Shown: in pieces, positions 29,067-55,031 of the stretch | How positions within the stretch are numbered: the first letter of the stretch is position 1 | How the letters are laid out: each line of letters starts with the position of its first letter | DNA from: Seleniivibrio sp. | GTDB lineage: Bacteria; Chrysiogenota; Deferribacteres; Deferribacterales; Geovibrionaceae | Direction: 5' to 3' | Assembly (NCBI RefSeq): GCF_021209385.1 | Contig: NZ_JAJOIL010000005.1 | Span: 16,877-80,876, forward strand | DNA length: 64,000 bases | Notes under the pieces: model-generated | What the model saw: only the letters and a program-made list of their open reading frames with translations | Databases searched by the model: none | Told to the model about the DNA's origin: nothing | Translations under genes and position numbers: made by a program

Positions 29067-29148
29067 TCCCCCTTTATAAAAGGGGGATTAAGGGGGATTT
29101 AATTAAGAAAATCCACCCCGACCCTCCTTTGCTAAAGGAGGGAGGGAA
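29067..29148. repeat. Interspersed double-palindrome repeat, family 1, copy A
   Basis: Left palindrome CCCCCTTT...AAAAGGGGG (29068-29086) with a second AGGGGGATT, a spacer with AAAATCCACCCC, and right palindrome CCCTCCTTT-GCT-AAAGGAGGG (29122-29142). Two more copies occur at 32064 and 51407. It sits inside the fab operon between fabH and fabD, where it would form hairpins in the mRNA. Confidence 0.85.
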
Positions 29149-32063: not shown

Positions 32064-32150
32064 AGCCCCTTCAATGAAGGAGTACCAAGGGTGATTTACA
32101 TTTACTATTAAGAAAATCCACCCCAACCCTCCTTTGTTAAAGGAGGGAGA
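32064..32150. repeat. Interspersed double-palindrome repeat, family 1, copy B (left half degenerate)
   Basis: The right half is well kept: ATTAAGAAAATCCACCCC, then CCCTCCTTT-GTT-AAAGGAGGG (32127-32147). The left half (AGCCCCTTCAATGAAGGAG...AAGGGTGATTTA) has decayed. It lies between the hisE stop and the yceD gene region. Confidence 0.75.
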
Positions 32151-47330: not shown

Positions 47331-47945
47331 TTACCCGATGGGCAGAACTGTTTTTTTGTAAACTTCGTTGAGAACCTGAGCCGCGCCTGCATACATTGCA
47401 GAAAGACCGCAGAGAACTCCTTCAAATCCGGCGAATTTTTTGATGGATGCGCTTTCAAACATATCGCCTATGGCAAGAAGCATGAACAGTATCACAAGCA
47501 GGAAGAAAACAACCTGAAGAGCTTTGTTCAGCTTGAAAGTACCTATGAAAAGAATGAGAGAGAAGAAGCCCCACAGAAACAGATAAGCAGACATTGCTAC
47601 TGTGTCGGGTTTCTCAAATCCCATCTTGGGAAGGACAATTATACCAACGAGAGTAAGCCAGAAAAGTCCATATGATGTAAAGGCTACTGTGCCGAATGTA
47701 TTTTTCTTTTTCCATTCCATCATGCCGACGATTATCTGTCCGAGACCGCCGTAGAAGATACCCATTGCAAGGATTCCGCTGTCCAGCGCAAAAAGACCGA
47801 TGTTGTGCAGGTTAAGAAGAATGGTTGTCAGACCAAAACCCATAAGTCCCAGAGGAGCAGGATTTGCGGTGGAATCTGCGATAACTGTCTCCGCAATCTG
47901 TCCGAGAGCCGTGTCAGTATTCACAGCTTCAACTTTGTTGCTCAT
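47331..47945 (-). CDS. satP: Acetate/succinate-type transporter, GPR1/FUN34/YaaH (SatP) family
   Basis: 204 residues with six membrane helices. The family signature [21 protein letters not shown] is at about residues 29-49, before helix 1; helix 6 ends with the short C-terminus. Members move acetate and succinate with protons. SD TTTGGAGG before ATG. Solitary gene with a terminator, so it is its own unit; acetate uptake fits an anaerobic respirer. Confidence 0.9.
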
Positions 47946-48870
47946 ATTCTACCTCCAAAGTTATAATGACCAATCATCAATAAACTTGCTTATTTCTCAG
48001 TTTATCAACCTTTGCTGATTTCTATATACAAACGGTTTTATGACAATGCAATAACTATTTATTCCGAGTGAACAAGGTTAATTAATGCTATATTATTTAA
48101 AAACATAGTTATATATTTATAACATACGCTCTATCTTTCTTATATAGGGCTTTAAATATATTGTTCAGCATACATTCATCTTTTTATGCACCGGAAATGT
48201 CCCATTAAAATTACATTATGTTCTATTTTAATTTTTTTATGTCCGATGAAAAATTTTTGCTTACCGCTGACAAAAACTATGACATATAACCCCTATTTTA
48301 CTTATTTTACGCTTATAATGAATCTGTAAACACCAATGGTTAATCATGCCGCTGACAGAAGCAGCATGACACGTTTTAAGTATAGATGCATATCATTTTT
48401 GACAGATTGCAGCAGGAAAGCAGCTATTATTAAAAAAATACAAAACTTTGTTTCTTTTATATTAATATTAAGACCGAATACAGCATACATACTTTATCAT
48501 AAATGCTATATTTACAGCTATTATTGACCTGTTTTACTGTTTATAACAGATTACTATTTACACTGTCAGAAAAACTAGAATAAATAAGCTGACTTATTTT
48601 TCATGCTGGCAGTAAGCCTTAATGTTTACCAGTTATTACACCGATCTGAACCTATAACGGTAACAATCTTCCAAAATACATGTTAATAGCAGTATTAACA
48701 CAGATAAAACAATTTAAGGCATCAATTAAATAATACTAATTATCAGCTCTTTATACACTTCCAACATTGATTTTAAATTTTATATGATTTTTTAAAATTA
48801 AATTTTCCTGACATTCCAACTATTTCCAAACTTAAACAAACAAAAGTTAGTTCGCAAAACATTATTTATA
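47946..48870. other. AT-rich non-coding region
   Basis: About 925 bp with long A/T runs and no ORF that looks real (a 63-codon plus-strand ORF at 48336 has no SD and AT-driven composition). No tRNA, repeat-family copy or DnaA-box cluster was seen. It must carry the satP promoter at its left end; the rest shows nothing I can name. Confidence 0.6.
48023..48051 (-). promoter_or_regulatory. Possible satP promoter
   Basis: Minus strand TTGCAT (48046-48051), 17-nt spacer, TATATA (48023-48028), about 80 nt before the satP ATG. Both hexamers match only in part. Confidence 0.35.
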
Positions 48871-48899
48871 TTGACACTAAAATTAATTTACGAAATAAT
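48871..48899 (+). promoter_or_regulatory. Promoter of the Phe attenuator operon
   Basis: TTGACA (48871-48876) is a perfect -35; after 17 nt comes AATAAT (48894-48899), five of six bases of the -10 consensus. The expected start is 48905-48907, which is the A of the leader ORF's AUG at 48906. The leader would thus be translated from a leaderless end. Confidence 0.75.
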
Positions 48900-48905
48900 C
48901 TATTC

Positions 48906-48980
48906 ATGAAAATGAACAGAACTTTCACAGAAACCTCTTTTTTCTTTTTTGGTTTCTTTTGGTGCTCAGCCTCTGAGTAG
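48906..48980 (+). CDS. Phenylalanine-rich attenuator leader peptide
   Basis: 24-codon ORF, too short for the ORF track: ATG 48906 to TAG 48978-48980. Seven codons are Phe (one at residue 7, then the run SFFFFGFF at residues 11-18), followed by W and C. This resembles pheL and pheM leader peptides of enterobacteria. No SD precedes it, but the promoter geometry predicts an mRNA beginning at this AUG. A second in-frame ATG is at 48912. The ribosome's position on the Phe run would choose between two RNA folds downstream. Confidence 0.82.
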   Translation: MKMNRTFTETSFFFFGFFWCSASE

Positions 48981-49011
48981 ACCGTGGAGTTCTGCACGAT
49001 AAGCTTGCAAG

Positions 49012-49045
49012 GGGCTGTGAGAACGAACTCACAGCCCTTTTTTTT
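49012..49045 (+). terminator. Attenuator terminator
   Basis: GGGCTGTGAG (49012-49021) pairs perfectly with CTCACAGCCC (49028-49037) around a 6-nt loop, then eight Ts (49038-49045). Located 41 nt before the next gene's ATG, so it acts on that gene. Confidence 0.93.
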
Positions 49046-49086: not shown

Positions 49087-50199
49087 ATGAAAAAAACGGT
49101 AATTACGATTCTTATGCTTCTTGTCTCGGTATGCGCCTACGCCGAGATAAAGATCGGTGCTCTTCTGGCGCTCTCAGGTCCTATTTCAAACCTTGGAAAA
49201 CCCGGTCAGGAGATCATCGACGGTGTCATCGCCGAGGCAAACAAAACGAACATGCTGGGCGAAAAGATAACTGTAGTGTCCTATGATACTCAGTCGCTTC
49301 CGGACAGAGCGCAGACATATGCGAAAAAGCTCATCGCAAAGGACAGGGTTAACGTTATCGTGGGTCCCAACGGAACGGGCGAGGCGCTCTCTGTCTTAGG
49401 CGAAGCGATGTCCTCCAAAACGCCGATGATGGCATTCGCCGGAGGAACATCAGTTGTAATGCCTGTCCGCCCCTATATTTTCAAATCCCCCCAGACAACC
49501 ACAACAGCAATCGAAAAAGCTTTCAACTATCTGAAGAAAAAAGGAATAACAAAAATTGCAGTCGCAGCTGACGCAACGGGTTTCGGTCAGGACGGTCTCG
49601 ACCAGATTAATAAATATTCCAAAGGTTTTACTATCACAGGCATTGAGAAGTTCAACGCAACCGATAACGACGTGACAACACAGATGTCAAAACTGCTCTC
49701 TGCAAAACCGCAGGCGGTTGTCATCTGGACAGTGGGCAGAGCGGGCGCAATAGCTGCAAAAAGTCTCCGCGCACTCGACCCAAACATTCTTATGGTTCAG
49801 TCACACGGGATCGCGGACAACTCATACCTTAAACTGGCAGGTGCTGCCGCAGAAAACACCATCATGCCCTCGGTCAAACTGACAGTGGCATCAAGCATAC
49901 CCGCAAGCGACCCGCAGAAAAAAGCTATCGACCTTTTCGTTAAAAAATACGGCAAACTCATAGATGAAACGTCCGTACACGCAAGCTATGCATACGACGG
50001 TATAAACATTGTCCTTGCCGCCCTGAAAAAAGCTAAAGCAGAAAAAATACCTCTCCAGCAGGCGATGGAAAAGATAACCAACTTTGTCGGTGTAACAGGC
50101 GTTTACAACATGAGCAAATCTGACCACTGCGGTCTTGACCTCTCTTCAATGGTCATTGTCAAGGTGAAAGACGGCAAGTTTGTTCTCGAAGAAATGTGA
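49087..50199 (+). CDS. LIV-type (Peripla_BP_6) amino-acid/aryl-acid binding protein 1
   Basis: 370 residues: signal peptide (about 1-18, CAYAE), then a type I periplasmic-binding fold (EIKIGALLALSGPISNLGKPG at the start, VIVGPNGTGEALSV, TGFGQDGLDQINKYS). Typical ligands are branched-chain or aromatic amino acids and aromatic acids. GGAGG lies 6 nt before the ATG. It is the first gene behind the Phe attenuator. No permease or ATPase genes (livHMGF) are in the window, so it must work with transporter parts encoded elsewhere. Confidence 0.88.
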   Translation: MKKTVITILMLLVSVCAYAEIKIGALLALSGPISNLGKPGQEIIDGVIAEANKTNMLGEKITVVSYDTQSLPDRAQTYAKKLIAKDRVNVIVGPNGTGEALSVLGEAMSSKTPMMAFAGGTSVVMPVRPYIFKSPQTTTTAIEKAFNYLKKKGITKIAVAADATGFGQDGLDQINKYSKGFTITGIEKFNATDNDVTTQMSKLLSAKPQAVVIWTVGRAGAIAAKSLRALDPNILMVQSHGIADNSYLKLAGAAAENTIMPSVKLTVASSIPASDPQKKAIDLFVKKYGKLIDETSVHASYAYDGINIVLAALKKAKAEKIPLQQAMEKITNFVGVTGVYNMSKSDHCGLDLSSMVIVKVKDGKFVLEEM

Positions 50200-50211
50200 T
50201 TTTCATATTAT

Positions 50212-50246
50212 AAAGGCTGCAGAATACACTGCGGCCTTTATTTTTT
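50212..50246 (+). terminator. Hairpin between the two binding-protein genes
   Basis: AAAGGCTGCAG (50212-50222) with CTGCGGCCTTT (50229-50239), 11 bp including one G-U, then ATTTTTT. The next gene's SD begins directly after the Ts. It probably reduces transcription of the second gene or protects the mRNA of the first. Confidence 0.75.
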
Positions 50247-50256
50247 GGAGGAAAAT

Positions 50257-51369
50257 ATGAAGAAAGTTCTCATAACTACATCTGTGCTTCTTCTCAGCAT
50301 ATCTGCATATGCAGAGGTGAAGATAGGTGCGCTGCTGGCTCTTACAGGTCCCATATCTAACATCGGCAAACCCTCGCAGGAGATACTTGAAGGTGTTATC
50401 GCCGACGCGAACAAAGCAAACTTCATGGGCGAAAAGATCACCCTTGTCTCATATGACACACAGGGGATGCCCGACAAAACGATGATGTTCGCAAAAAAAT
50501 TAATAAACAAAGACAAGGTTGACGTTATCGTGGGTCCCACGTCCACAGGCGAGGCGATGTCAGTTATCGGCACCATCATGGAAGCCCAGACACCCACAAT
50601 GGGATTCGTCGGCGGAACTCCTCCTGTTGAGCCGGTACGTCAGTACATGTTCAAATCACCGCAGAAAACATCCACTGCTGTTGAAAAAACCTTCGGCTAT
50701 CTGAAAAAGAAAGGCTGGACAAAGATAGGCGTTGTTGTGGATGCAACCGGTTTCGGTCAGGACGGACTTGACCAGATAAACAAATACGCCGCCGGTTTCA
50801 CAATCACAGGCGTTGAAAAGTTCAACATGACAGACACCGACATGACAACACAGATGAAAAAGATACTGGACACAAAACCTCAGGCGATTGTGGTGTGGAC
50901 AGTGGGCAAAGCGGGTGCAGTAGCCGCGAAGAGCCTGCGCGCACTGGATAATGACATCCCGCTGATCCAGTCACACGGCATAGCGGACTTCGCATACACA
51001 AAACTTGCAGGTGCGTCTGCGGAAGGTTCAATCATGCCCGCACTTAAGATCGTCGTCGCAAAACAGCTTCCTGCGAACGATCCCCAGAAAAAGGCAATAG
51101 ACCTTTTCAACAAACGCTACGGCAAACTGATAAATGAAACCTCCGTACACGCAATTTACGCATACGACGGTATAAACCTGATGCTGAACGCTATGAAACG
51201 CGCCAAAAACGAAAAGATAAGCATCGTTCAGGCGCTGGAAACAACAAAGAATTTCGCCGGAGCAACAGGCGTTTATAACATAACAAAAACAGACCACTGC
51301 GGACTGGATATGTCCTCTCTGGTGATGGTCAGAGTTAAGAACGGTCAGTTTGTTCTTGAAGATATGTAA
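50257..51369 (+). CDS. LIV-type (Peripla_BP_6) amino-acid/aryl-acid binding protein 2
   Basis: 370 residues from ATG 50257 (GGAGG at 50247-50251); the track start 50245 lies in the hairpin tail. Signal peptide ending AYAE, then a close tandem duplicate of the preceding protein (same length; shared TGFGQDGLDQINKYA, VVWTVGKAGAVAAKSLRALD, DHCGLD). The two differ in the segments that usually line the ligand pocket, e.g. GGTPPVEPVRQY against GGTSVVMPVRPY, so their ligands may differ. Followed by a strong hairpin and a repeat. Confidence 0.88.
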   Translation: MKKVLITTSVLLLSISAYAEVKIGALLALTGPISNIGKPSQEILEGVIADANKANFMGEKITLVSYDTQGMPDKTMMFAKKLINKDKVDVIVGPTSTGEAMSVIGTIMEAQTPTMGFVGGTPPVEPVRQYMFKSPQKTSTAVEKTFGYLKKKGWTKIGVVVDATGFGQDGLDQINKYAAGFTITGVEKFNMTDTDMTTQMKKILDTKPQAIVVWTVGKAGAVAAKSLRALDNDIPLIQSHGIADFAYTKLAGASAEGSIMPALKIVVAKQLPANDPQKKAIDLFNKRYGKLINETSVHAIYAYDGINLMLNAMKRAKNEKISIVQALETTKNFAGATGVYNITKTDHCGLDMSSLVMVRVKNGQFVLEDM

Positions 51370-51374
51370 AACTC

Positions 51375-51404
51375 AACAAGGGAGGCAATCGCCTCCCTTG
51401 TTTT
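51375..51404 (+). terminator. Terminator after binding-protein gene 2
   Basis: AACAAGGGAGGC (51375-51386) pairs perfectly with GCCTCCCTTGTT (51391-51402), 12 bp with a 4-nt loop, and is followed by TTAAG. The T-tract is short. It may end the attenuated transcript before iorA. Confidence 0.75.
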
Positions 51405-51406
51405 AA

Positions 51407-51498
51407 GTCCCACTTTGAAAAAGGGGGATTTAGGGGGATTTTCTTTCCGGCTTTTTAAGAACAAATCCACCCCGCCACTCCTTTGCTAAAGGAGGGAG
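51407..51498. repeat. Interspersed double-palindrome repeat, family 1, copy C
   Basis: TCCCACTTTGAAAAAGGGGGATTTAGGGGGATT, a spacer, AAATCCACCCC, and CTCCTTT-GCT-AAAGGAG (51478-51494). Same order of parts as copies A and B. The ORF-track start of iorA (51483) lies inside this element and is therefore unlikely. Confidence 0.82.
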
Positions 51499-51575
51499 AA
51501 AATCAGCTTTTTTCTTTAAATTCTTATTTCATTAGTGTACTATCTCATTCTGTCATTAATTTTACGGTGATTCAG

Positions 51576-53318
51576 ATGGTAAACGGTTTTTTTCTCGGCA
51601 ACGAACTGATTGCTCTTGCCGCTGTTGATTCGGGAGTTAAAAGCGCATACGCATATCCCGGAACCCCTTCAAGCGAGATACTTTTAGCTTTTTCAAAATT
51701 CGCACCGGAGCGCTATGCCCAATGGTCGCTGAATGAAAAGATAGCCCTTGAGCTTGCCGCAGGCGAAGCGATATCAGGTTCCTCCACACTCTGCTGTATG
51801 AAAATGGTGGGACTCAACGTCGCCGCCGATCCGCTTTTCAGCGTGGCATACACAGGTGTTGACGGTGCGATGGTGCTTGTGTCCGCGGACGATCCGGGAC
51901 CTTACAGCAGCCAGACGGAGCAGGACAGCCGCATGTATGCCGTAAGCGCAAAAATGCCCGTTCTCGACCCGTGCAACCCGCAGGATGCTTACCGTCTGAC
52001 AATGCTTGGATATCAGATATCCGAAAAATACCGCCTTCCCGTGATGGTCAGACCCGTTATGCGCGTCTGCCATTCCCGCCAGAATTTTGAGGCTGGCGAC
52101 GTTTCCAAGGAACCGATTCATGGACAGTTCAGTAAAAATACTCCGCGCTGGGCGGCAACACCGAAATTCCGCCGCATCCTCCATGAAAAGCTTAACAAGA
52201 ACCTTGACCTGCTCGCCGCAGAGATGGCTCCTAAAATACCGGAAAAAAGATACGACATGGCTGTTGTTGCCTCAGGCTACGCATACGCCATGGCAAAAGA
52301 CGTCATAAATGAAATGAACCTTCCCTTCGACATGATAAAGGTTGATATGCCCTTCCCTCTGGACAAACAGTTTGTCATAGAGGCGGAGATGGTATACGAC
52401 CGCATCGTCGTACTTGAAGAAACCTTCCCTGTTATCGAACATAACTTTACAATAAAGACCGTGGGCAGGTTAACGGGACTTGTACCATCCGAAGGGGAAC
52501 TTACAGTGGACATCATCGCCGATATACTTTTCAAAACGGCGGGGATGACACGCAAAACCGATAAAGCCGAAATAACCACTTCCGAGACACCTGTCCAGCT
52601 CAAACCTCGCCTCTGCGCGGGATGCGGACACAGACCCGCTTTCTATGCCATGAAGCTTGCCGCTCCCAGCGGTATCTTCCCCGGAGATATAGGCTGTTAC
52701 ACTCTCGGCGTAAACCTTGACGCAGTTGACACATGCATCTGTATGGGCGCATCCGTAACTTTTGCGGAAGCAATGAAACGCTCCAACCCGGACAGACCCG
52801 TCATATGCACCATAGGCGATTCAACATTCTTCCACACAGGTGTCGCGGGACTTACAAACGCCGTGGTCAACAGCGCTCCTATAGTCGTGGCGATACTTGA
52901 CAACGAAACCACAGCCATGACAGGCTTTCAGCCTGTACCCCACAAAACAGGCAAGCTTACTATTGAGCAGGCGTGTCAGGGTGCAGGCGTCAGGCACATA
53001 GCGAAAGTTGATCCCTATAATCTGAAAAAAGGCGTTGAAGCACTCAAACAGGCGCTTGCATACGCGCATACGGATAATTCCCCCGCAGTGGTGATCTTCA
53101 CTAAAGAATGTGTCACCAAAACCCGCTATAAAAATAAAAAAATTGCTGAAATAACAGATGCATGCACCGACTGCACCATATGCTATGAAAAGTTCGAGTG
53201 TCCGGCGATATACAGAGACAAAGCGAAACGCATGGCAAAGATTGACGAAACTGCATGCGTGGGCTGTATGGTCTGTATTCAGGTATGCCCGCAGAAAGCT
53301 ATCGGGGTGAAGAAATGA
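51576..53318 (+). CDS. iorA: Indolepyruvate (arylpyruvate):ferredoxin oxidoreductase, alpha subunit
   Basis: 580 residues from ATG 51576 (MVNGFFLGNELIALAA, SD GGTGAT). Catalyses arylpyruvate + CoA + ferredoxin to aryl-acetyl-CoA + CO2, reversibly. Layout: pyrimidine-type domain (AYAYPGTPSSEI), a central domain, a TPP-binding domain with ARLCAGCGHRPAFY-like LCAGCGHRP, GDIGCYTLG and TIGDSTFFHTG, then two 4Fe-4S motifs at the end (CTDCTICYEKFECPA and CVGCMVCIQVCPQKA). The track's longer start would read through the repeat. Coupled to iorB by an ATGA overlap. Confidence 0.93.
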   Translation: MVNGFFLGNELIALAAVDSGVKSAYAYPGTPSSEILLAFSKFAPERYAQWSLNEKIALELAAGEAISGSSTLCCMKMVGLNVAADPLFSVAYTGVDGAMVLVSADDPGPYSSQTEQDSRMYAVSAKMPVLDPCNPQDAYRLTMLGYQISEKYRLPVMVRPVMRVCHSRQNFEAGDVSKEPIHGQFSKNTPRWAATPKFRRILHEKLNKNLDLLAAEMAPKIPEKRYDMAVVASGYAYAMAKDVINEMNLPFDMIKVDMPFPLDKQFVIEAEMVYDRIVVLEETFPVIEHNFTIKTVGRLTGLVPSEGELTVDIIADILFKTAGMTRKTDKAEITTSETPVQLKPRLCAGCGHRPAFYAMKLAAPSGIFPGDIGCYTLGVNLDAVDTCICMGASVTFAEAMKRSNPDRPVICTIGDSTFFHTGVAGLTNAVVNSAPIVVAILDNETTAMTGFQPVPHKTGKLTIEQACQGAGVRHIAKVDPYNLKKGVEALKQALAYAHTDNSPAVVIFTKECVTKTRYKNKKIAEITDACTDCTICYEKFECPAIYRDKAKRMAKIDETACVGCMVCIQVCPQKAIGVKK

Positions 53319-53824
53319 TTCAGGGCGTAATTTGCGGAAAAGGCGGACAGGGTGTCATAACTCTTAATGCCATGATAGGAACTCTGGCAGCTAACATGGG
53401 AATACCTGCCGTTTCTGCGGAAACACACGGCATGGCTATGCGCGGAGGTTCAGTCGCAACATACATAAAAATAGGCGAATGTCTCAGCGCCGCAGTTGCG
53501 GAAGGTTCTGCAGATTTCATTATCAGCCTAACAAAAGACGAGGCGCTCAGAAATCTCAACTATATAAAAAAAGACGGGGTAATCATCGTAGACACGGATG
53601 AACCCTTTGACATAAGCGGAGTTAAAATAATCTCCCTGCCGGCTTCCGACATGGCGGAAAAAGAATTCGGCGGCAGGATATACGGCGGTCAGGTGCTTCT
53701 TGGCATCTTGCTCGGCTGTTTTGACGGTATTGACACCGAAAAAGCGTTGGAAATACTGGAAACAGCCCCAAAAATAAGCATCCGCGCCATAGAATACGGA
53801 GTCAGATATGCACAAACTCACTGA
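53315..53824 (+). CDS. iorB: Indolepyruvate (arylpyruvate):ferredoxin oxidoreductase, beta subunit
   Basis: 169 residues from ATG 53315, which overlaps the iorA stop (ATGA) and has GGGGTGA upstream; the track start 53255 is inside iorA. 2-oxoacid:ferredoxin oxidoreductase gamma-type domain: IQGVICGKGGQGVITLNAM and SAETHGMAMRGGSVATYIK. Forms the IOR complex with IorA. It overlaps paaK by 17 nt. Confidence 0.92.
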   Translation: MIQGVICGKGGQGVITLNAMIGTLAANMGIPAVSAETHGMAMRGGSVATYIKIGECLSAAVAEGSADFIISLTKDEALRNLNYIKKDGVIIVDTDEPFDISGVKIISLPASDMAEKEFGGRIYGGQVLLGILLGCFDGIDTEKALEILETAPKISIRAIEYGVRYAQTH

Positions 53825-55031
53825 CATACAGCTTTTAAAGCTTGGTACCACACTGCATCATATAAAAAAGGCGAACCCCTTCTATTTCCAAAGATACGAA
53901 ACGGACAGAATCACTTCATATGAAGACCTCACAAAAATGCCCTTCATCACGAAAGATATACTTCGTCAGGGATACCCCTTTGCGTATGCGTGTGCAGACA
54001 CAAAAAACTGTATGCGGATGCATATGTCAAGCGGTACCACAGGCAAACCTATTATAAACCCCATGACCGAAGGGGACGTTAACCAATGGGGCGAGATAAT
54101 GGCGCGCTGCTACACCACAGCAGGCGTAACCTGTGAGGACACAGTCCAGATAACCCCTTCGTTCGGGCTTTTCAACGGCGGTTTCGGCTTCCACTACGGC
54201 GCGGAAAGGCTGAAAAGCTTCATAATACCAATGGGTGCCGGACGCTCACTGCTCCAGCTCCAGTTCATAAAAGACCTTGAGACTACCTGCCTCTGCGCAA
54301 TCGCTTCCTATCCTCTGAGGCTTATTGAAGTTGCGAAACAGGAAGGCTTTAACTTTAAAGAGACGAAACTCCGCGTGGGCATATTCGGTGCTGAAACATG
54401 GACGGAAGGCATACGCAGGCGTATCGAAAAAGAGATGGGCATAGAGACGTTCGACATCATCGGCATGACAGAAACCGGCGGCGTGGGACTTGGAATAGAC
54501 TGCAAAGACCACAGCGGGATACACGTCTGGGACGACCATTATATTGTCGAGATAGTCGATCCGGAAACTGGCGAACCCCTGCCCGACGGTGTTGAAGGCG
54601 AAATGGTGGTGACAACGCTCACGCGTGAAGGTCTTCCGCTCATACGCTACCGCACGAGAGACATCACAAAAGTAATAAGCCGCGAACCCTGTAAATGCGG
54701 TCTGCATACGATGAAGATAGCCAGACTGAAAGGCAGAACGGACGACATGCTCAAGGTGAAAGGTGTAAACTTCTATCCGGCACAGATAGAATCCATACTG
54801 ATGGAATTCACCGAAATCGGTGAGGAATACCGGATAATACTTGATAAAAAGAAGGGCAAAGGGGATGTCACCCTAGCCGTTGAAACCAATACGATAACCG
54901 ACGACGCAAAAGACAGACTTGATACGAAGCTTTATGACTTCCTCGGATTCCGCGTGGACGTGCAGTATCTTAAACCGGGTACTCTGGAGCGCTCCGCAGG
55001 AAAAGCCATCAGGGTTGTTGATAACAGATAG
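53808..55031 (+). CDS. paaK: Phenylacetate-CoA ligase (AMP-forming)
   Basis: 407 residues, slightly shorter than the usual ~430. Adenylation motif MHMSSGTTGKPI, FGAETWTEGIRRRIEKE, DIIGMTETGG, RYRTRDITKV and the C-terminal RLKGRTDDMLKVKGVNFYP. Converts phenylacetate or another aryl acid to its CoA ester. Coupled to iorB, so aryl-acetyl-CoA is the shared intermediate: IOR plus ligase can run towards aryl-acetate release (with the ligase reversed) or towards arylpyruvate synthesis from arylacetate. The stop abuts the convergent neighbour's stop (TAGCTA), with no terminator between. Confidence 0.92.
   Translation: MHKLTDIQLLKLGTTLHHIKKANPFYFQRYETDRITSYEDLTKMPFITKDILRQGYPFAYACADTKNCMRMHMSSGTTGKPIINPMTEGDVNQWGEIMARCYTTAGVTCEDTVQITPSFGLFNGGFGFHYGAERLKSFIIPMGAGRSLLQLQFIKDLETTCLCAIASYPLRLIEVAKQEGFNFKETKLRVGIFGAETWTEGIRRRIEKEMGIETFDIIGMTETGGVGLGIDCKDHSGIHVWDDHYIVEIVDPETGEPLPDGVEGEMVVTTLTREGLPLIRYRTRDITKVISREPCKCGLHTMKIARLKGRTDDMLKVKGVNFYPAQIESILMEFTEIGEEYRIILDKKKGKGDVTLAVETNTITDDAKDRLDTKLYDFLGFRVDVQYLKPGTLERSAGKAIRVVDNR

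Follow-up and report, generated by a model that had tools for sequence, protein, structure and literature searches.

A predicted phenylalanine attenuator upstream of two solute-binding protein genes next to iorAB-paaK in Seleniivibrio, and its possible role in aromatic-compound scavenging

The DNA analyzed here, referred to as the window, is a 64,000-nucleotide stretch of a Seleniivibrio contig, in which positions 49087 to 55031 carry two genes for solute-binding proteins (SBPs), followed by iorA, iorB, and paaK, all on the plus strand. The initial annotation had placed the same five genes in this interval, and its coordinates and gene calls were correct. SBP1 (49087..50199) encodes a Peripla_BP_6 solute-binding protein (PF13458, 6.6e-48), and SBP2 (50257..51369) encodes a paralogue of the same family that is 68% identical to SBP1. 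The iorA gene (51576..53318), whose ATG start is backed by orthologues, encodes the alpha subunit of a 2-oxoacid ferredoxin oxidoreductase of the aryl-pyruvate type (IOR) in a compact subtype, iorB (53315..53824) encodes the beta/gamma subunit (PF01558), and paaK (53808..55031) encodes a PaaK-type AMP-forming coenzyme A (CoA) ligase. IorA matched TIGR03336 (IOR_alpha) over its full length (9.1e-176, 585.7 bits; curated cut-off 650.9), IorB reached 93 bits with TIGR03334 (IOR_beta; equivalog cut-off 206), and PaaK, with 6.9e-108 and 360.9 bits against TIGR02155, did not reach the equivalog cut-off of 646.3 and is thus PaaK-like. As all three scores are below the cut-offs, the names are valid at the family level and not at the substrate level. 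We compared five Seleniivibrio genomes, namely that of the window (G000), G002, G003, G004, and the most diverged G001. The order SBP1-SBP2-iorA is kept in all five, together with the upstream promoter, leader, and terminator, and a scan of the genome contigs gave three Seleniivibrio-type loci only. IorA orthologues are 78-93% identical within Seleniivibrio and 57-58% identical in G016, G018, and G025, of which we take the latter two to be Deferribacter; the paaK orthologue that adjoins iorAB in Deferribacter is 71-72% identical.

The region upstream of SBP1 contains a predicted phenylalanine (Phe) attenuator, as the initial annotation had claimed. A sigma-70-like promoter (TTGACA-17-AATAAT, 48871..48899, plus strand) with 11/12 matches has the top promoter score of the region and is assigned to the leader/SBP transcript. 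It is followed by a leader open reading frame (ORF) for the peptide MKMNRTFTETSFFFFGFFWCSASE (48906..48980, plus strand), in which 7 of the 24 codons specify Phe (FFFFGFFW), and by an intrinsic terminator (49009..49040, plus strand) consisting of a 13-bp stem and a U run. Promoter, Phe-rich leader ORF, and terminator are conserved in all five genomes. The leader RNA is far more stable than shuffled sequences (z -5.3), and when the intergenic gap was shuffled 3,000 times with its dinucleotides preserved, no shuffle reproduced the combination of a Phe-rich leader ORF and a terminator, with the ORF alone appearing in five. In G001, the peptide has been rewritten to MIENNVNTLFSGFFFSFFFCFWHSDCHE, which is still rich in Phe, and the upper stem of the terminator is altered, with both features being retained. 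With the ribosome positioned over the Phe codons and the terminator still lacking its 3' arm, the antiterminator 5' arm CUCAGCCUCU (48965..48974, plus strand) was predicted to pair with the 5' arm of the terminator (AGGGGCUGUGAG, 49010-49021) at -18 to -21 kcal/mol in four of the five genomes. The leader AUG lies only 6-7 nt past the -10 box in each genome, and the leader ORF is therefore probably read from a leaderless transcript. Precedents for leaderless leader peptides exist, such as the rhizobial trpL. Taken together, the sequences make a strong case for an SBP unit under a conserved Phe attenuator, which presumably functions as a switch.

The general mechanism of such attenuation has been described for pheA (PMC2659441). 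The Seleniivibrio element resembles the pheA-type attenuators of the phe operons of enteric bacteria and Shewanella in its Phe-rich leader ORF, its predicted antiterminator/terminator pair, and the expected control by charging of Phe-tRNA(Phe). It differs in that SBP genes rather than pheA or pheST would be controlled, in the position of the leader AUG at the expected transcript start, in its occurrence in the phylum Deferribacterota, and in the lack of an Rfam match, as no Rfam family matched anywhere in the window. We found no second in-frame Phe leader with a terminator among 20 pattern matches in the genome, no Phe leader in the stretch examined around pheA, and no report of Phe attenuation in Deferribacterota in the literature searched. 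Upstream of the leader promoter, an imperfect inverted repeat (AACTATT-N17-AA(T/A)AGTT, 48818-48848) is kept in the four closest genomes and may be bound by a second regulator. Divergent from the leader and separated from it by an AT-rich gap of ~960 bp is a gene for an acetate uptake transporter of the AceTr/SatP family (47331-47945, minus strand).

With respect to the reach of this control, two intergenic regions are of importance. The gap between SBP1 and SBP2 contains a terminator-like hairpin (50210..50241, plus strand) that abuts the SBP2 ribosome-binding site. Each of the five genomes has this hairpin (-17 to -24 kcal/mol), and since its structure is retained while the stem sequences differ, partial read-through probably accounts for SBP2 expression, with the hairpin possibly setting the ratio of SBP1 to SBP2. 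In the gap between SBP2 and iorA, a strong hairpin with a U run (51375..51404, plus strand) is likely a terminator. It is followed by a dispersed, insertion-like and REP-like repeat element (51405..51498), with related copies at 29102-29144 and 32107-32149 and the copy of this gap at 51456-51498. The hairpin and repeat that the initial annotation had seen at 51375-51498 are thus real. The repeat is found between SBP2 and iorA only in the genome of the window, the same gap of the other four genomes being free of it; intrinsic terminators are present in this gap in G000, G004, and G001, and G002 and G003 have a hairpin of ~90 nt without an adjacent U run. Past the hairpin, iorA has a promoter of its own (TTTAAA-17-TACTAT, 51515..51543, plus strand; TAGTAT as -10 in relatives) that is conserved in four genomes, and G016, G018, and G025 have iorA-iorB-paaK as an independent operon. 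As the hairpins separate the two gene sets, as iorA has its own conserved promoter, and as iorAB-paaK stands alone in relatives, there is strong reason to regard iorAB-paaK as a separately promoted unit, and Phe control most likely ends at the SBP genes. The earlier description of iorAB-paaK as lying behind a Phe attenuator is therefore correct for the position and probably not for the transcription, and Phe control of these three genes is not borne out, in agreement with the caution already voiced at the time that control may stop at the binding-protein genes. The single locus proposed previously has to be split into an attenuated SBP unit and a separate iorAB-paaK unit.

There is nevertheless a good case that the two units are functionally associated, as had been suggested initially, because three independent lines point to it: the conserved gene order, co-occurrence, and a shared 18-nt site in relatives. 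Among 26 genomes, the SBP subfamily (>50% identity) was found in 7 of the 8 genomes that have this type of iorA and in none of the 18 that lack it (p ~1e-5, uncorrected for shared ancestry and with two lineages involved). In the two Deferribacter genomes, the SBP gene and iorA lie at a great distance from each other, but a common 18-nt site is found near both promoters. Four Deferribacter-type promoters served to define the pattern GGTTAAATWWWWTTTRAC, and each of the two genomes contains it exactly two times, at iorA and at the SBP gene (G018:C1:42401 and C8:68817; G025:C1:1305518 and C1:1123263). In G012, G013, and G017, which represent three other genera and were outside the definition set, it occurs once each and always directly upstream of paaK in SBP-bearing operons of the type paaK-ACT-SBP-SBP-livHMGF-paaK, and the reversed pattern that served as a control gave no match. 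Matches in the loci compared are at L128:6977, L129:6710, L130:10622 (minus strand), and L135:1437, and a related site is found upstream of paaK in G019. We regard GGTTAAATWWWWTTTRAC as a candidate operator through which Deferribacterales may control an arylacetate regulon. Genera of family f1 seem to have a drifted version (TAAAC-N-GTTAAAT...TTTGAC) before paaK. We had also considered TTAACC-N-GGTTAA as an operator, which was found at the expected places in Deferribacter but was insufficiently selective, whereas the 18-nt motif was selective.

In other Deferribacterales, homologous SBPs (34-38% identity) are encoded together with PaaK and a LIV-type permease in a standard operon of the order paaK-ACT-SBP(1 or 2)-livH-livM-livG-livF-paaK (G006, G012, G013, G017, G018, and G019), in which the ACT pair belongs to PF19571. 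Seleniivibrio differs in that its SBP genes are not part of the permease operon and that the Phe attenuator precedes two of them. No permease gene is found near the SBP genes of the window, and the paaK-ACT-livHMGF-paaK operon of Seleniivibrio (G000:C13 ~260-266 kb; L136:6099-12523, L140, and L141) has no SBP gene between the ACT gene and livH. Together, these two observations make SBP1 and SBP2 good candidates for subunits that may serve the PaaK-linked permease in trans. In genus g4 (G007 and G011), SBP genes are also found outside the paaK-LIV operon, arranged in tandem and with no leader peptide in evidence (L133:8570-11085; L134:9163-12864).

As to the ligand, the nearest solved relatives of SBP1 are 3sg0, 7ylt, and 4dqd, and the best solved relative of SBP2 is 7ylt (2.4e-40). 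The top-ranked relatives are aromatic-acid SBPs (7ylt, 3sg0, 4dqd, 3uk0, and CouP), whereas LivJ is much more distant from SBP1 (1z15, 2.5e-4, versus 3sg0, 1.1e-36). IadK2 (7ylt) binds indole-3-acetate (PMC10374108), and CouP (4jb0) binds phenylpropenoids and 4-hydroxyphenylpyruvate (PMC3610893). Since these subcluster B-III aromatic-acid SBPs are the closest solved relatives by sequence, the ligands of SBP1 and SBP2 may be aryl acids. An AlphaFold model of SBP2, made with eight sequences, had a pLDDT of 45 and was discarded.

With respect to the enzymes, a biosynthetic function has been proposed in Bacteroides for IOR next to an arylacetate-CoA ligase of the AMP-forming type, as such ligases favor acyl-CoA synthesis (PMC13285125), so that the biosynthetic reading given in the initial annotation matches a published inference. 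Work cited in PMC4162585 and PMC13285125 has aryl acids feeding aromatic amino-acid synthesis in M. maripaludis, and PMC7356843 cites rumen cultures in which Phe was made from phenylacetate. Seleniivibrio shares with the Bacteroides and methanogen systems, for which a biosynthetic direction has been proposed, the grouping of iorA, iorB, and a PaaK-type ligase, and differs from them in its compact IOR with scores under the equivalog cut-offs, in the neighboring attenuated SBP genes, and in its affiliation with Deferribacterota. Routes for phenylacetate degradation were checked for PaaA/PaaC and BcrB/BcrC: the PaaA/PaaC family of the aerobic paa monooxygenase is absent from the genomes examined, and there is no BcrB/BcrC pair of a class-I benzoyl-CoA reductase, the one PF06050 gene per genome belonging to a family that E. 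coli matches too. We infer that IOR may act in the direction of carboxylation of arylacetyl-CoA. The genome of the window contains another iorAB pair, which is of the canonical type and has no paaK (L038:3717-6034, minus strand).

On balance, we consider it somewhat probable that the two neighboring transcription units together make up a module for scavenging aromatic compounds. At the level of the sequences, this reading is built on the anatomy and conservation of the attenuator, the separate promoters, the permease operon without an SBP gene, the co-occurrence, and the shared operator in relatives, and we infer from it the switch function, the permease partnership, the ligand, and the direction of IOR. 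Transcription of the first unit would begin at or near the leader AUG. With plentiful Phe-tRNA(Phe), the ribosome would pass the Phe codons and transcription would end at the terminator (49009-49040), whereas with scarce Phe-tRNA(Phe), the ribosome would stall in FFFFGFF, CUCAGCCUCU would pair with the 5' arm of the terminator, and SBP1 would be transcribed, followed by SBP2 via the leaky intergenic hairpin. The SBPs, which have no permease of their own, would feed in trans the LIV-type permease encoded by paaK-ACT-livHMGF-paaK. The second unit, iorA-iorB-paaK, would be transcribed from its own promoter; PaaK would form arylacetyl-CoA, IOR with reduced ferredoxin would probably carboxylate it to the arylpyruvate, and an aminotransferase would yield Phe.

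Several observations weigh against such a module or against parts of it. In place of the Arg that binds the carboxylate in IadK2 (R199) and CouP (R197), SBP2 has Met191, SBP1 has Ala, and Deferribacter has Lys, and Phe168 and Phe308 of IadK2 are replaced by Asp and His in this SBP subfamily. The SBPs of the permease operons differ again, with Asp at the Arg position and the second Phe retained. Pocket mapping thus argues against a canonical aryl-carboxylate site in SBP1 and SBP2, which, together with the lack of adjoining permease genes, sets them apart from IadK2 and CouP. Each Seleniivibrio genome also has one separate LIV-class SBP gene elsewhere, without a leader peptide upstream in G000 and G001, and its product may be the original partner of the permease. 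An exact search of the Seleniivibrio genome G000 for GGTTAAATWWWWTTTRAC gave no match, the antiterminator fold of G001 was not convincing, and the sub-cut-off scores of IorA, IorB, and PaaK count here as well. Finally, all 15 genomes tested have pheA, the gene for chorismate mutase-prephenate dehydratase, and in the genome of the window an aminotransferase gene comes next. The cell should therefore make Phe de novo, and the Phe salvage proposed initially is tenable as a supplement to this synthesis and not as its replacement.

Among the alternatives, the one that retains most weight, although we lean against it, is that the SBPs serve the uptake of L-Phe, or of several aromatic amino acids, as a plain response to Phe starvation, with iorAB-paaK as an independently controlled neighbor in the same broad metabolism. 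This would be the simplest reading of a Phe attenuator, it fits the two separate transcription units and the missing aryl-carboxylate Arg, and the association of LIV-type permeases with ACT-domain genes suggests amino-acid metabolism. However, the closest SBPs of known structure are binders of aromatic acids, with LivJ at a far greater distance; alignments with the aryl-acid SBPs showed no acidic residue for ammonium binding at the site that presumably corresponds to LivJ Glu226; and both the co-occurrence and the shared operators link the SBP family with PaaK and IOR rather than with amino-acid genes. We consider it rather unlikely that iorAB-paaK is catabolic, with IOR forming phenylacetyl-CoA by oxidation of Phe-derived phenylpyruvate and the product being handled by PaaK or other enzymes. 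IOR is reversible, and the IOR of B. thetaiotaomicron participates in the conversion of Phe to phenylacetate according to a citation in PMC13285125, but the preference of AMP-forming ligases for acyl-CoA synthesis (PMC13285125), the lack of the PaaA/PaaC family and of a BcrB/BcrC pair for further breakdown of phenylacetyl-CoA, and neighboring SBPs on a switch that would open when Phe is scarce all speak against it. Least likely is a single regulon in which Phe control reaches iorAB-paaK by read-through of the SBP2-iorA hairpin, as the gene order conserved in five genomes and the missing U run in G002 and G003 are outweighed by the terminators of the other three genomes, the conserved -35/-10 boxes before iorA, and the stand-alone operons.

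Returning to the scavenging module, a more specific version, which we put forward only tentatively and consider doubtful as a whole, is that a Phe-starvation switch governs arylacetate capture: the SBPs would have become detached from the PaaK-linked permease operon, the duplicated pair would have come under a leaderless Phe attenuator, and tRNA charging would govern phenylacetate salvage to Phe via PaaK and a reversed IOR.

Ribosome-mediated Phe attenuation is best known on genes of Phe biosynthesis and of tRNA synthetases. In the present case, such attenuation apparently controls how binding proteins are supplied to an ABC transporter, in a little-studied phylum and beside enzymes of arylacetate assimilation. 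Across the order, a candidate regulon emerges from the conserved operator together with the paaK-ACT-SBP-LIV-paaK operon. If the SBPs do bind phenylacetate or phenylpyruvate, starvation sensing would be tied to the salvage of fermentation products of neighboring microbes, and the direction of a bacterial IOR would become testable in a culturable organism.

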